Origin: Polyangia bacterium
Lineage (GTDB): Bacteria > Myxococcota_A > Polyangia > Polyangiales > JAUICN01
Direction of reading: 5' to 3'
DNA: 64,000 bases
Assembly (NCBI GenBank): GCA_030427835.1
Contig: JAUICN010000004.1
Location: 186,001-250,000 of the forward strand
Under the pieces are notes generated by a model. It was not told the origin of the DNA and did not search any database. It worked only from the letters and a program-made list of their open reading frames with translations. The stretch's first letter is position 1. Every line of letters starts with the position of its first letter. The translations under genes were made by a program, and so were the position numbers. This document shows positions 4,687 to 34,130 of this stretch, one piece after another.

Positions 4687-5367
4687 ATGTTGCATTTGAA
4701 TCGAGTTCGCGTGGGTGGTTTGGAGGCTTGGGTACTTTTGTTGAGTATTTCCCTGGCGGGCGTTCTTTCCGGCTGCATGAGCACCGCCCAATTTCAGGGC
4801 GTAGACACCGTGCCCAAGGGGGAAATCGAATACGGGGTGGGCGCCTCCTACGTCCGATATGAGGTGGCTTCCCTGCGTGCTCCTGACGGATTGGAAACGC
4901 GCAGATACCTCGTACCGTCCTTTTTTCTCCGCAGGGGATTGTTTAAGGGGGTTGAGTTTCACGTATCGGGGTCCCTCACCGCCTGGTTCTCCCACGGGAT
5001 GAAATTCCAGCTGTTGGGGGGAAGAGAAAAGAACGGCCTGGCCCTATCCTTGGGTTGGGATTTTCACCACTACTACACATTCACTCCAGAGGGCTACAGC
5101 AGCCCCGCGACCACCACGTCCCATACGGATTTGGTGGCACCCGTGTATCTTGGCTACCGCTTTGATCCCGATACGGCCCTCTACGTCACGCCCAAATACG
5201 TACTACGAAGCCGATTGCAAGACTTCGTCGGCATTACCCACGCCGCAGGGGCCACAGCCGGAGCAGAGTTTGGGCATGACAAACGTTTCTTCGTGGAAGG
5301 TGGATTACTCCGTGATTGGAGCCTCAAAAGCTACATCCCCAACTTTGGTGTGGGAATGTCTTTCTAA
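4687..5367 (+). CDS. Probable barrel-like lipoprotein
   Basis: The 226-residue product begins with a signal peptide ending in a lipobox (LSGC, Cys near residue 30), so it should be lipidated. The mature part is rich in alternating aromatic and hydrophobic strands (GEIEYGVGASYVRYEV, LALSLGWDFHHYYTF, APVYLGYRFDPDTALYVTPKY) and ends in Phe, a signature of outer-membrane barrels recognised by the Bam machinery. A lipidated small barrel or barrel-like surface protein is the best reading; I cannot name a family. An AGGAGAG ribosome site precedes the ATG. It is divergent from ftsY and converges with the next gene, with 13 bases between the two stops. Confidence 0.65.
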   Translation: MLHLNRVRVGGLEAWVLLLSISLAGVLSGCMSTAQFQGVDTVPKGEIEYGVGASYVRYEVASLRAPDGLETRRYLVPSFFLRRGLFKGVEFHVSGSLTAWFSHGMKFQLLGGREKNGLALSLGWDFHHYYTFTPEGYSSPATTTSHTDLVAPVYLGYRFDPDTALYVTPKYVLRSRLQDFVGITHAAGATAGAEFGHDKRFFVEGGLLRDWSLKSYIPNFGVGMSF

Positions 5368-5372
5368 ATCCC

Positions 5373-5387
5373 GAAGTGGTCTAGGGA
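5373..5387. repeat. Copy of the end of the 30575-30741 hairpin element
   Basis: The plus strand reads CCGAAGTGGTCTAGG. It matches the right end of the hairpin element at 30727-30741 (GCGAAGCGGTCTAGG) in 13 of 15 positions, with a 14-base core holding one mismatch. It spans the junction between two convergent genes, and read on the minus strand its TAG is the stop codon of the gene at 5381-6361. Flanking ATCCC and GGGAT can pair around it, so it may also act as a weak two-way terminator. No matching left end is nearby. Confidence 0.35.
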
Positions 5388-28057: not shown

Positions 28058-30028
28058 GTGGTGGCCAAGGAAGACCCAGTAGGCCTTCTCCAGAATCAAG
28101 TGGAGTTTGGTCGTTACGAGCCCCTGTTCCGAATTGCGGCAGGGGGCATGGCGGAGGTGTACGCCGCGCGGGTTTCGGGTGTGGCCGGCTTCGAAAAGCT
28201 GGTAGCTGTCAAACGCATGCTGCCCCAGCTGGCAGATGACGAAGAGTTCGTCACCATGTTCCTGGACGAGGCCAAGGTGGCCGCCCACATCAACAGCCCC
28301 CACGTGGTGCAAACCCTGGAACTGGGCCAGGGGAGTGACAATTCACTCTACATCGCCATGGAGTTGGTGGTGGGCGTGACCCTGGCGCGGTTGCTCCGGT
28401 GGTCGGCCCGAAACCGTTACCCCATACCCATCGGTGTGGCCGTGAACCTCCTATGGCAGGCGTCCCAGGGCCTTCACGATGCCCACGAGGCCACCACCGC
28501 CCTCGGCGAGCCCCTGGACGTGGTGCACCGGGATGTATCCCCCCAAAACATCCTTGTTGGAGTGAACGGCCGTGTGCGACTCACCGACTTTGGTGTGGCC
28601 AAGGCCATGCGCCGTGCCACCCGTACGGAAGCCGGCCGCATTAAGGGTAAGTACGCCTACTGCGCGCCCGAGCATATTACAGGCAAGGACGTGGACCGTC
28701 GTGCGGACGTGTTTAGCCTTGGTGTGGTGGCCTGGGAGTTTTTCACCGGGCAGAGATTGTTTTTGGGGGATCATCCCGCAGAAACCATCGAACGGGTACG
28801 CACCATGCCCATCCCCGCCCTCCATCAGGTGCGACCCGACGTTCCCCAGAGTGTCTCCGACGCCGTGTCCTGGGCCCTCGAGCGTGACCTGACCGCCCGG
28901 GCGCCCACGGCCCTCGCGTTTGGTGAGGCCCTGCGGGCCGCGGCCCTGGAACATCAAGGCCAGCCAGAGAAGGAAGAAATCATCCGTTTCGTCCGGTCTG
29001 CGGGGGGTGAGGCCTTGCACCGACTCCAGGACAATATTGTGCGTGCATTGAAGGACCGCCGTGCGATTGAAGCGCTTCAGGCCCAGGGTGACCTTGGGCT
29101 CACCCCCACTGCAGGCTCGCGCACAGAATCGGGTGACCACCCTTCGGCGGTTCCTAGGACGCCAGCCCCTGGATCGCCAGCCCCTGGAACACCGCCCAGG
29201 GATTCGACCCGATACAGTCCACCCCAGAGCCATGGGTCCCCATCGAGCAGTACCCCTCCCCAACCGGGCCTGACGCGCGAGGATCACGCGCTCAGGGATT
29301 CTGTGCCCATGGAAGAAACCCTGGATCCCACGGACTTGGAGGAGGTGGTGGTGCCCGTGGAGCAACGGGACGCGGACGCTTCGGTGCCCGGAGCCGCGAC
29401 CAAACCCGGAAGTGTGTTCCCACCCCAGTTGGGCCTAACGTCACCCCTTCCCCCCAATCCGGTACCACGTCAGGCGCCCACCCGTTGGCCCCTGGCGCTC
29501 AAGGTGACGGTGGGGGCATCGGTGTTGTTGTTGCTTGCCGGGGCCGCGCTTGTGGCAATGGGTTGGCTGCGCGGCACCCCCTATCGCAACAACGAGGTGC
29601 CCAGCGGCCCAACCCCGGGCTCGGCCCGACCGCCCACACAGGTCAATCTCGGCCACGAGCCCGTCAGGATCGAAGCCTATTCTTCGGAGAACACTACCGA
29701 CCACGAAGATCCTCCCTTGCAAGGAGAGCCTTCGTCCCTTGGCACAGGTACCCGAAATTCACCCACGCCAGGATCCGAGGATCCCACCGTCCCAGGGGCG
29801 GGCAGCGGAGGCCGTACCCAAGGAGGTCATTCAAACTTAGGGCAGACGCCCACCCCCCCCACGGGCGGTTCTGCCACAGGCCAGCACGGCGACACCAGGG
29901 CGGAAACGGGCTCAACGATTGGCCCAGCAGCGGACCCAGCAAGGAGCCCAGCAAAGGATCCGACGAACGACCCGGCAAGCGGAATGGTGGGGCTTGATGT
30001 CTTTGACAGGGACAGGGAAGCCGAATGA
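28058..30028 (+). CDS. Transmembrane Ser/Thr protein kinase
   Basis: This is a 656-residue Hanks-type kinase. The catalytic domain (about 18-290) has the glycine loop AAGGMAEVY, the lysine in VAVKRM, the catalytic loop HRDVSPQNIL, DFGVAK and the APE-like CAPEH. A Pro/Ser-rich juxtamembrane linker leads to one transmembrane helix (about 480-503) and a periplasmic tail of about 150 low-complexity residues (Pro, Gly, Thr, Asp) with no recognisable sensor domain. It starts at a GTG 61 bases downstream of the giant TPR gene on the same strand and may be in its operon. Its neighbours include an FHA-containing protein, so a regulatory link to the envelope machine is plausible but not shown. The stop overlaps the start of tsaE (ATGA). 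Confidence 0.92.
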   Translation: MVAKEDPVGLLQNQVEFGRYEPLFRIAAGGMAEVYAARVSGVAGFEKLVAVKRMLPQLADDEEFVTMFLDEAKVAAHINSPHVVQTLELGQGSDNSLYIAMELVVGVTLARLLRWSARNRYPIPIGVAVNLLWQASQGLHDAHEATTALGEPLDVVHRDVSPQNILVGVNGRVRLTDFGVAKAMRRATRTEAGRIKGKYAYCAPEHITGKDVDRRADVFSLGVVAWEFFTGQRLFLGDHPAETIERVRTMPIPALHQVRPDVPQSVSDAVSWALERDLTARAPTALAFGEALRAAALEHQGQPEKEEIIRFVRSAGGEALHRLQDNIVRALKDRRAIEALQAQGDLGLTPTAGSRTESGDHPSAVPRTPAPGSPAPGTPPRDSTRYSPPQSHGSPSSSTPPQPGLTREDHALRDSVPMEETLDPTDLEEVVVPVEQRDADASVPGAATKPGSVFPPQLGLTSPLPPNPVPRQAPTRWPLALKVTVGASVLLLLAGAALVAMGWLRGTPYRNNEVPSGPTPGSARPPTQVNLGHEPVRIEAYSSENTTDHEDPPLQGEPSSLGTGTRNSPTPGSEDPTVPGAGSGGRTQGGHSNLGQTPTPPTGGSATGQHGDTRAETGSTIGPAADPARSPAKDPTNDPASGMVGLDVFDRDREAE

Positions 30029-30579
30029 GCCCTCCACATCCCCGGCAACCCCTGTCCGACCGTACATCGAAACCTGCTGCAGAAGGTGGGCTCGAGGGGA
30101 TCCACACAACGGTGGAACTCCCCACCGAGGCCAGCACCCAGGATTGGGCCCGGGCCCTGGCACCCCAGCTCAAGGGAGGAGACGTCCTTTTTTTGGAGGG
30201 GCCCCTAGGTGCGGGGAAAACCGCCCTGGTGCGCTTTCTTGCCCGGAGTTTAGGGCTTGATGAGGACGAGCCCGTACCAAGCCCTTCCTACACGCTTCTG
30301 CAGGAGATCCCTTCGGACCTTCCTATCCTACACGGAGACTTCTACCGGCTGGCAGGGGAGGCCGACGTGGATACCCTGGGCGTGGACGATTGGAATGGGT
30401 TCCCCGGGGTGCTTGTGGTGGAATGGCCCGGGCCCCTGATCGCGCGCCGGACGCCCGACCTGGTACTGACCCTGGAAATCACGGGAGAAACCTCCAGGCG
30501 CCTCTGCGCGACGGCACAATCCGTCCGTGGCCAGGAAATCCTTCGCCACGTCAACCTTGCTCGATCCGGCAATACCTAG
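30025..30579 (+). CDS. tsaE: tRNA threonylcarbamoyladenosine biosynthesis ATPase TsaE
   Basis: TsaE is the ATPase that works with TsaB and TsaD to make t6A at position 37 of ANN-decoding tRNAs. The 184 residues show the P-loop GPLGAGKTALVR (about 58-69), the PSPSYTLLQE segment and LHGDFYRL typical of the family, then VVEWPGPL near the end of the core (E. coli has a Trp-Pro or Trp-Ala pair here). An N-terminal extension of about 30 residues is not conserved. The ATG overlaps the kinase stop. The stop codon TAG lies inside the left inverted repeat of the hairpin element that follows, so the element abuts or has supplied the gene's end. No tsaB or tsaD is in the window. Confidence 0.92.
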   Translation: MSPPHPRQPLSDRTSKPAAEGGLEGIHTTVELPTEASTQDWARALAPQLKGGDVLFLEGPLGAGKTALVRFLARSLGLDEDEPVPSPSYTLLQEIPSDLPILHGDFYRLAGEADVDTLGVDDWNGFPGVLVVEWPGPLIARRTPDLVLTLEITGETSRRLCATAQSVRGQEILRHVNLARSGNT

Positions 30580-30741
30580 ACCGCTTCGTGTTTTAGATGA
30601 ACGAATGATCGGTGTTCAGCGGAGCCACCATGGCGTGACAACCGACGAGGCAATGTAGGAACATTGTTGAGGAGGTTGGAGGGTCATGGTCGCTTTGCTG
30701 GGCTCCGAGGGCCGATCAGGTAAAACGCGAAGCGGTCTAGG
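30575..30741. mobile_element. MITE-like hairpin element with 21-base terminal inverted repeats
   Basis: The ends 30575-30595 and 30721-30741 are inverted copies of each other: 20 of 21 positions pair as Watson-Crick and the remaining one as G-T. The left end begins CCTAGACCGCTTCG and the right end finishes CGAAGCGGTCTAGG. Inner segments continue the fold in nested order: TGATCGG/CCGATCA, CGGAGCC/GGCTCCG, ACCATG/CATGGT, CAACC/GGTTG and a tip CAATGT-AGGA-ACATTG. The whole 167 bases can form one long hairpin. CTAG sits at both borders and could be a 4-base target duplication around 16-base repeats. No ORF is present. A miniature inverted-repeat element is the best reading; a structured leader RNA upstream of carB is the alternative. 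Confidence 0.7.
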
Positions 30742-30782
30742 CCAACCTTGCTCCCGGGAAGGGGGGGTGGTAAGCGCCGCCG

Positions 30783-33700
30783 GTGCCGAGACGTACCGAC
30801 CTAAAAAGCATTCTCCTGTTGGGCTCCGGCCCCATTGTCATTGGCCAGGCCTGCGAGTTTGACTACTCCGGCACCCAGGGCGCCAAAGCCCTACGGCAAG
30901 AGGGGTATCGGGTCATTCTGGTCAACTCCAACCCCGCCACCATCATGACGGACCCGGAGTTTGCGGACCGCACCTATGTGGAGCCCCTCACACCGGAGGT
31001 GGTGGAGCAGATCCTCCGACGGGAAAAACCAGACGCCGTCTTGCCCACCCTGGGTGGCCAAACCGCCCTGAACCTGGCCCTGGAAATGGAATCCCGTGGC
31101 GTGCTTGCCGAACTGGGCATTGAACTGTTGGGCGCACGGGTGGACACCATACACAAGGCGGAAGACCGGGAACTGTTCAAGGCCCTGGTGGAGAAACTGG
31201 GCCTCCGTTGCCCCCGTGCCCGCACGGCCCGTACCCTGGAGGAGGCCCACGAAGCTCTCAAGGAAGTGGGCTTCCCCGTGATCCTTCGCCCGTCCTTTAC
31301 CATGGGAGGTTCCGGGGGCGGCGTGGTCTACAACCGGGAGGATTTCGACAGCGCCATTCTCTGGGCATTTCAACAGAGCCCCACCCACGAGTGTCTTGTG
31401 GAAGAAAGCGTGCTCGGTTGGAAAGAGTATGAGCTGGAGGTTATTCGCGACAGCGCCGACAATTTTTCAGTCATTTGCACCATTGAGAACATCGACCCCA
31501 TGGGAGTCCACACGGGGGATTCGGTGACCGTGGCGCCGGCCATGACCCTCACTGACAAGGAGTACCAACGGCTCCGGGACGCGTCGCGCCGGATCATCAC
31601 TGAGGTGGGCGTGGAAACGGGAGGCGCGAACATCCAGTTCGGTGTCAACCCCGACAACGGCGACTTCGTAGTCATTGAAATGAATCCGCGGGTGTCCCGT
31701 TCCAGTGCTCTTGCGTCGAAGGCCACCGGTTACCCCATCGCAAAGATCGCAGCGAAACTGGCCGTGGGATACACGCTGGATGAACTGCGCAACGACATGA
31801 CCGGCACCAGCGCCGCCTTTGAACCCACCATCGACTACGTGGTAGTAAAAGCACCCCGGTTTGCCTTTGAAAAGTTCCCGGGAGCGGACCCAAGGCTCAC
31901 CACCCAAATGAAATCCGTGGGCGAAGCCATGTCCATCGGGCGCACGTTCTCAGAGGCGTTTCAGAAGGCCATGCGTTCCCTGGAAATCGGCCGGGATGGG
32001 CTCGACAGTCTACTCGACCGCGTGGACTACCCGCGGTTGGCGCAACAGTTGCGGCTCAAGAGTGTGGGCACCGACGAAAGTTCTCCCCTGTCTGAGATCC
32101 CCCTGCTTGCCACCCGGCCGGGCACACCTGGCAGTGTTTCTGCTGCGGATCCACGTGCCCCGGGGATCCACGCAAAGGAAATTTCGCCCGATCAGGTCCA
32201 CCCCCACCAGGGTGTGCCCCTGGGAGAACTGCGTCGGGCCATTGCCGACATCATTCAAACCCCCCTGGCCGAGAGACTCTTCTATTTGGCCGACGGGTTT
32301 CGCGTGGGGCTTGGGATCGAGGAGGTCCATGACCGTACGAAGATCGACCCATGGTTTCTACATCACCTGCGGTCCATCGCGTTGAAGACGAACCGGGGCC
32401 CCACCGCAGAGCACAACCCCCAGGGCGAAACCCTGTTCTACAAAGTGGATACCTGCGCCGGCGAGTTTGAGGCGAAAACCAACTATTTCTATTCCACCCG
32501 ATCCCGTGGGGGCACCCTGGGCGGCCCGGCCGCGGGCAATCCTGTCTCTGAAGCCACCGTTGCCGACGACAAGCCCGTCATGATCCTTGGCGGCGGCCCA
32601 AACCGCATTGGCCAGGGCATTGAGTTTGATTACTGCTGCGTGCACGCGGCCTTTGCCTGTCGCGAATTGAACATCCCCTCGGTGATGGTGAACTGCAATC
32701 CGGAGACCGTCTCCACCGACTTCGACACCTCCGACCGTCTTTACTTCGAACCACTAACCTTTGAAGACGTCATGAACATTGTGGCCGTGGAACAGCCCCG
32801 GGGCGTCATTGTGCAGCTGGGTGGGCAGACTCCCCTCAAGCTGGCGGTACAACTTGCGGAGGCCGGCGTGCCTATTCTGGGCACCCCTGCCGACGCCATC
32901 GATCGTGCAGAGGACCGCGAGCGGTTCGATGCACTTCTCGAAAAACTAAAACTCAAGCGCCCACCTGGAAACACGGCCACCAGCGTGGAGCAGGCCCTGC
33001 AAGTCACCAAGGACCTGGGCTTCCCTGTGGTGGTTCGCCCAAGCTACGTGCTTGGTGGCCGAGCCATGGAAATCGTGCATTCCGGCGATGACCTCATGCG
33101 CTTCATTCAAGCCGCCTTCGATGCGGTGCGCGGCGCGGCAAGCCAAACCATTCTCGTGGATCGCTTTCTCCAGGATGCCATCGAGGTGGATGTGGATTGT
33201 GTGTGCGACGGCAAGCAGGTGGTGATCGGCGCCATCATGCAACACATCGAGGAAGCGGGAGTGCACTCCGGGGATTCCTCCCTTGTGCTTCCGGCCCACA
33301 CCCTGTCCGAATCCCTGTTGGATGAAATCCGGGAATCCACCCGCGCCATGGCCCTTGAGTTGGGAGTGGTCGGTCTCATGAACGTGCAGTACGCGGTTCA
33401 GGGAGACGACGTGTACGTCATTGAGGTGAACCCGCGGGCCTCCCGCACGGTGCCCTTTGTGGCCAAGGCCACGGGGTTCCCGCTCGCGCGCATCGCAGCC
33501 AAGGTCATGATGGGCCATTCCCTGGAATCCCTTGGGTACACCAAAGAGATCATCCCCACCCACGTTGCCGTGAAGGAGTCGGTGTTCCCCTTTCACAAGT
33601 TTGCGGGCGTGGACACCCTGTTGGGCCCCGAAATGCGGTCCACGGGTGAGGTCATGGGCATCGACCAAAACTTCCCCCGGGCCTTCATGAAAGCCCAGCT

Positions 33701-34130
33701 CGCCGCCTCCACCGCTCTTCCCGAAAAAGGCACGGTGCTGCTGAGTGTTCGTGACGGCGACAAGCCTTCCATATGCAAGGTGGCACAACGTCTTCAGGAG
33801 GCGGGGTTCAGCCTGGTGGCCACGCGAGGCACCGCCGACGCCCTTCGGCAGGCATCCATCGAGGTCGACGTGGTGAACAGGGTCAACGAGGGGCGGCCCC
33901 ACATTGTGGATATGCTCCGCAATGACGAGATTCACATGGTGATCAACACCACCGAGGGGGCCAGGGCCATCGAGGACAGCAAATCTTTGCGTAGGCAGAC
34001 CCTACTCAGCGGCGTGCCCTACTTCACCACCGCCGCTGCCGCCGAGGCCGCCGCCCAGGCCATGCAAGAAGCCCAAAAAGGCCCCATCCAGGTCCGTTCC
34101 CTCCAGGAGTTCGCCGCCACCGCAGGATAG
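30783..34130 (+). CDS. carB: Carbamoyl-phosphate synthase large subunit
   Basis: CarB makes carbamoyl phosphate from bicarbonate, ammonia and two ATP for pyrimidine and arginine synthesis. Two homologous ATP-grasp halves are evident. The first starts [29 protein letters not shown] and the second starts near residue 595 with [23 protein letters not shown]; both carry the [20 protein letters not shown]-type or [18 protein letters not shown]-type metal-binding segments. A C-terminal MGS-like domain ends the protein. It has 1115 residues against about 1070 usually. The excess is largely a Ser/Pro-rich insertion near residues 430-475 in the oligomerisation region. The start is a GTG preceded by a G-rich stretch. 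No carA is present in the window, so the glutaminase subunit is encoded elsewhere. Confidence 0.97.

Follow-up and report, generated by a model that had tools for sequence, protein, structure and literature searches.

A hairpin element between tsaE and carB belongs to an order-wide family of TA-target, probably mobile repeats in the Myxococcota

Introduction

In the draft genome of a Polyangia bacterium (GCA_030427835.1), a long hairpin bordered by CTAG tetranucleotides occupies the gap between tsaE and carB, and the stop codon of tsaE falls within its left border. What placed it there, and does it serve the neighbouring genes or only itself? The window referred to below is the whole stretch of 64,000 nucleotides that was analysed (contig JAUICN010000004.1, positions 186,001 to 250,000), and all coordinates without a contig name are positions in it. 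A preliminary description of this stretch favoured a miniature inverted-repeat transposable element (MITE) and named a structured RNA in front of carB as the rival. We weighed these readings, and others that arose, by comparing copies and insertion sites at the sequence level.

Results

A rod-like hairpin with CTAG borders

The features of the locus are as follows.

30576..30740, + strand (the strand with the conserved tip motif): full-length hairpin element with its CTAG borders, defined by the fold, 17 genomic copies and their alignment
30577..30578, no strand: left copy of the duplicated target TA, within CTAG; with G30579 it makes up the tsaE stop codon
30738..30739, no strand: right copy of the duplicated target TA, within CTAG
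30579..30737, + strand: element proper, the 159 bases enclosed by the TAs, which open with GACCGC and close with GCGGTC; delimited by comparing copies with unequal outer bases
30579..30595, + strand: left terminal inverted repeat, inside the TA, from copy alignments and covariation; its sequence varies by subfamily, and its pairing with the right repeat is always kept
30721..30737, - strand: right terminal inverted repeat, from copy alignments and covariation
30644..30674, + strand: conserved tip GACGAGGCAATGTAGGAACATTGTTGAGGAG, an apical stem-loop between GA/GA internal loops
30025..30579, + strand: tsaE, an open reading frame matching PF02367, with its TAG stop inside the target CTAG
30783..34130, + strand: carB, an open reading frame with CPSase domains, the downstream neighbour, starting 43 bases after the element

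The hairpin measures 165 bases. Its ends, CCTAGACCGCTTCGTGTTTTA and TAAAACGCGAAGCGGTCTAGG, are complementary over 21 bases apart from a single G-T pair, and the sequence folded alone forms a single unbranched rod down to a 4-base loop, as the preliminary description had it. The folding energy of 30560-30760 is -110.6 kcal/mol, compared with -67.1 +/- 4.2 kcal/mol for shuffled sequences (z -10.3; 0/200 shuffles as good). No longer inverted repeat was found at such spacing within the window, and a comparable one occurred in 0/20 shuffled windows. As the hairpin is inverted along its whole length, its 165 bp leave no space for a transposase gene. The limits first proposed, 30575-30741 (167 bases), enclose a real hairpin and are one base too wide on each side: CTAG lies at 30576-30579 and 30737-30740, and the outer C-G pair 30575/30741 belongs to the flank. 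The direct repeat CAACCTTGCTC, present in the window at 30552 and 30743 only, does flank the element as had been reported. It is nevertheless ruled out as the target duplication, both by its off-centre placement, with 13 bases separating it from the left CTAG but 2 from the right, and by its absence from the aligned flanks of the other copies.

Copies in the same genome

A search of the genome, a 98% complete draft of 3.3 Mb in 30 contigs, yielded 17 copies, 15 of them complete and two cut by contig ends. Fifteen places matched over most of the length, and two more (L031 and L142) were added with an end pattern and a covariance model. The element thus recurs around the genome with its ends fixed, and the flanks of the copies are unrelated to each other. 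Several subfamilies can be distinguished. Members of the window's own subfamily (L001-L004) are 0-2 bases apart, which points to recent spread or to uniformity that is maintained. Two contigs terminate within copies of this subfamily, so further copies may be missing from the assembly. The existence of copies already refutes a chance palindrome, a reading that the fold relative to shuffled sequences and the scan of shuffled windows also contradict and that we regard as having practically no likelihood.

Isolated pieces of the element occur as well. At 5364-5385 the window contains a solo right end, CTAAATCCCGAAGTGGTCTAGG, without a hairpin, whose TAA terminates the open frame upstream of it, and several more solo ends are found elsewhere in the genome. 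At another locus (L032, G000:C18:136900-137500, positions 310-341), two element ends abut in a 32-base palindrome, TTTGCTAGACCGGTTCGAGGCGGTCTAGCAAA, perhaps the remnant of an internal deletion.

Target site and duplication

Among the 15 complete copies of the genome, 13 are bordered by CTAG at either end; the other two read TTAG/CTAG and, in L008, CAAG/CAAG. The relative G053 shows recent spread of the element: it carries 15 copies, 12 of which are identical between the TAs. Their borders read CTAG/CTAG in 11 cases, TTAG/CTAG in two, ATAG/CTAG in one and CTAG/CTAT in one, i.e., the outer base is unequal in four copies and the TA is kept in all. Since fresh copies vary in the outer base and never in the TA, the duplicated part is TA (once AA), with the outer C and G reflecting a target preference; L008 then reads as an insertion into AA. 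The preliminary description had taken CTAG as a whole for the target duplication. A duplication does exist, but the unequal outer bases of recent copies rule out one of four bases, and what remains of CTAG is a preference. This preference is strong, as CTAG is scarce among TA sites: it accounts for 5% of them in the window and for about 13% in a G053 sample, the latter a rough guide only because the sample contains element ends.

The sister species G084 lacks the element at the orthologous gaps of two G053 copies; these gaps have diverged (70-77% identity) and show absence rather than the exact bases of an empty site. In another relative, G082, several older copies (L118-L125) have CTAG on one side and CGAG, CGAA or CAAG on the other, with the same base changed recurrently. 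One locus of G053 (L104, G053:C1:381960-382524) has two hairpins, at 37-204 and 201-365, one inserted in the terminal CTAG of another of the same family; the second hairpin is 168 bases long, and over 20 additional matches to its subfamily occur in that genome. In G057 (L056, G057:C54, about 1504-1720), the last ~40 bases of a copy are repeated in tandem beyond its right end.

The tsaE stop codon and the carB leader

Before insertion, the site would have read AAT ACC TAG G. The tsaE stop would thus be older than the insertion and regenerated by it. The preliminary description was correct that the stop (30577-30579) lies at the left end of the element, in the left CTAG, but not that the element placed it there: the reconstructed site indicates that it belongs to the target and was left unchanged. 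The terminal TAG also ends a flanking open frame at several other copies, and at L006 and L015 open frames from both sides end in it, as expected if the target was a CTAG common to convergent stops.

The hairpin might instead be a cis-acting, conserved RNA leader in the tsaE-carB gap that regulates carB. The conserved fold, the strong covariation and the favouring of one strand described below would suit such a role. However, the same element sits at about 17 unrelated sites in this genome, next to unrelated genes and in both orientations, and no relevant Rfam match was obtained for the window copy and five relatives. Open frames ending at the element enter from both sides, seven into the tip-bearing strand and nine against it (frames called mechanically, not curated genes); this lack of an orientation rule argues against a leader or terminator RNA. 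The dispersed copies exclude a carB leader RNA at the tsaE-carB location, and as a general account of the hairpin we consider it most improbable.

A family across the order

Starting from a similar element in G049, which represents a different genus of the order, copies were located in G057 and G058; their stems are other ones, but their fold is unchanged. With a covariance model built from 15 sequences, and with the tip required in addition, the family was found in 24 of 184 genomes of the order, mostly at lengths of 150-168 bases and often in at least 10 copies per genome among the best 15 candidates scored for each. The tip was required as independent evidence because the model (R1) scores any rod of such length, so that true members read on their opposite strand still reach about 35-74 bits; a score within this range was not accepted as homology on its own. 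Among 31 representatives from 22 genomes, nearly all have the tip GACGARG..ATGC...GYAT..TYGAGGA or a close variant; most are TA-ended, and many have CTAG.

One genome of the same phylum and another class, G311, has both tip and fold, with five repeated hits of which one was checked for the fold. In the phylum-wide search, run with two mismatches, the tip pattern also matches GC-rich coding sequence, so isolated matches beyond the order were left out of the count. One exact tip variant also occurs in named records, every one of them a Myxococcales or Deltaproteobacteria metagenome-assembled genome. A pattern of both ends at MITE spacing gave no match in genomes of other species, and neither did distant blastn searches of plasmids and phages or the tip pattern in viral contigs. 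No paper describing the family was found in the literature searched, which does not disprove that one exists elsewhere, and the family is apparently undescribed.

Covariation and strand asymmetry

Across the order, the stems change in compensating pairs while the tip motif is retained. In an alignment made from sequence only (A1), 97.1% of pair cells hold standard pairs, and 27 of 53 pairs have changed on both sides. None of 500 shuffles reached these values, and slid partners gave 34-40%. In the genome under study alone, 12 pairs have changed on both sides. Covariation, proposed at the outset as a check, is hence strongly positive, and is so wherever the element sits rather than at one gene.

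The mismatches that remain are asymmetric: counted on the tip-bearing strand, G-U and A-C types stand at 240:35, in the same direction in 22 of 22 genomes. These counts come from a symmetric arm-to-arm alignment in which all mismatches are scored alike. They are to be read with the shared ancestry of the copies in mind, and most genomes past the first four were gathered with an RNA model, which is biased towards G-U. For the genomes reached by DNA similarity, the ratio is 49:6 in the genome under study (five representatives, including L142, a copy that the model had supplied) and 23:3 for G049, G057 and G058 together. Restricting the count in the former to Watson-Crick consensus columns leaves 12 G-U and 3 A-C departures. 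As G-U on one strand is A-C on the other, the asymmetry suggests that the fold of the tip-bearing strand matters, and this folded form seems to be under selection.

It is conceivable that the hairpin is a DNA MITE whose compensating changes arise by repair between the arms, through template switching in the palindrome, rather than because a folded strand is selected. In long inverted repeats one arm is readily corrected against the other, and the pairs are mostly Watson-Crick. Such correction should, however, erase internal loops and G-U pairs alike, yet the GA/GA loops of the tip are kept and G-U outnumbers A-C sevenfold on one strand. We find this explanation quite unlikely.

The search for the mover

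As published in PMC2170065 and in the work of Tenzen and Ohtsubo to which it refers, IS630/Tc1-mariner elements duplicate TA, occasionally AA (ISY100), and IS630 prefers CTAG. It is mainly this target signature that favours an IS630-type enzyme acting in trans, and such movement would be the most likely mechanism. The order does contain IS630-family genes. Two were inspected, and both have terminal repeats that start GTGC and are flanked by CTAG: one in G056 (NF033545, E 3e-68) and one in G040 (a 234-residue frame, E 2.6e-24, under that family's cut-off). Some hairpin subfamilies (G082, G007, G009 and G022) likewise start GTGC after the TA.

Several observations count against this account. The genome under study, at 98% completeness, gave no match to DDE_3 (IS630), DDE_Tnp_1 or DDE_5, and neither G053 nor G082 gave a DDE_3 match. 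G053 contains no longer element with the ends of the hairpin, as all 30 ends found there belong to its 15 hairpins. In G056 and G040, the hairpin ends differ from the IS630 ends (TA-GTGC) of the same genomes. The assignment to IS630 leans mainly on one AA/AA copy and the TA pattern, and the unequal ends (CTAG/CGAG) of some old G082 copies require later mutation.

A different mover would be a Y1 transposase (RAYT) that carries a REPIN-like hairpin as single-stranded DNA and inserts it 3' of CTA, the apparent TA duplication then being the target plus a right end of like sequence. Compensating changes between arms are known in REPINs (PMC3116915), a strand-specific fold suits a single-stranded intermediate, and Y1 matches occur in 7 of 10 genomes tested, with one RAYT gene in the genome under study. 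Against this, L008 (CAAG/CAAG) would require a joint change of target and right end, three of the 10 hairpin-bearing genomes have no Y1 match (two of these assemblies are 82-90% complete), and the RAYTs of the order carry other terminal repeats (GGGGACA...) or parS-like palindromes. No family hairpin was found near RAYT genes or sharing their ends. We judge movement by a RAYT to be unlikely.

The only RAYT gene found in the genome under study (L177, G000:C3, about 31.8-35.2 kb) is flanked by several palindromes with TGTTTCACGTGAAACA, which resembles the ParB site parS; with these palindromes around it and no family hairpin nearby, it was rejected as the mover. In relatives, the RAYT genes at L178, L179, L181 and L183 lie between inverted repeats of 63-70 bases that begin with or just inside GGGGACA. 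These units are a different mobile element of the same order.

Discussion

We consider it probable that the hairpin is a non-autonomous mobile element, a MITE, that targets TA and whose folded strand is selected, with movement in trans by an IS630-type enzyme. The original proposal of a miniature transposable element holds up well, supported by 17 copies whose flanks are unrelated, by recent copies that are almost identical, by a target duplication and by two orthologous sites of a relative that are free of the element. An IS630/Tc1-mariner-type transposase would move the hairpin into the TA of CTAG. The window copy would have entered the CTAG carrying the tsaE stop, and the duplication would have restored the stop and left tsaE unaltered. 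Insertion at a stop-codon CTAG may be nearly harmless, which would explain the many copies at gene ends. The folded, tip-bearing strand, as RNA or single-stranded DNA, presumably bears on whether the element survives or spreads, given that G-U pairs are tolerated on it and A-C mismatches are not.

The hairpin is an order-wide, apparently undescribed variant of the TA-target MITEs of the RUP, Correia and ERIC kind. RUP, Correia/NEMIS and ERIC are also about 100-200 bp long and (nearly) non-coding, with TA termini and a target duplication, and their transcripts are predicted to fold as long stem-loops (PMC2229807). RUP is proposed to be moved by IS630-Spn1, and many described bacterial MITEs are likewise without a known parent (PMC2229807). 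These elements live in other hosts and have conserved terminal repeats (7-24 bp), whereas in the present family ends and stems vary by subfamily and genus and the tip is conserved. Compared with IS630/Tc1-mariner elements proper, the hairpin has no transposase gene inside. REPINs are similarly dispersed, and GTAG-tagged REPs share a terminal tetranucleotide tag (PMC3733652); in REPs, however, the ends are conserved and the middle is variable, the reverse of the hairpin family, for which no link to RAYT genes was seen. The bcr1-bcr18 repeats of Bacillus cereus are dispersed, 100-400 bp long and of inferred mobility as well; bcr1-3 have been called MITE-like, and bcr10 and bcr18 have conserved secondary structures (PMC6542083, PMC3446304). 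They differ in their TTTAT motif and in their host group.

Terminal repeats are usually taken to define a MITE and to link it to its transposase. A more speculative possibility, which we hold only tentatively, is that the family forms a lineage, spread through the order, of mobile nucleic acids that are recognised by their folded shape, with the tip bound by a mobilising or host factor. What is bound would be the tip of one strand, including its pair of GA/GA motifs, in the form of RNA or single-stranded DNA; stems and terminal repeats would then be free to change as long as they remain paired. If so, the identity of the element would reside in its fold and tip, not in its terminal repeats.

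In one order of the Myxococcota, then, ends and stems are replaced in sequence while fold, length and tip are retained, and what seems to be the mark of selection on a folded form is seen on one strand. The family puts a name to many unannotated intergenic repeats in genomes of this order, and it offers a well-sampled natural series on what bacterial hairpin elements must keep in order to spread.
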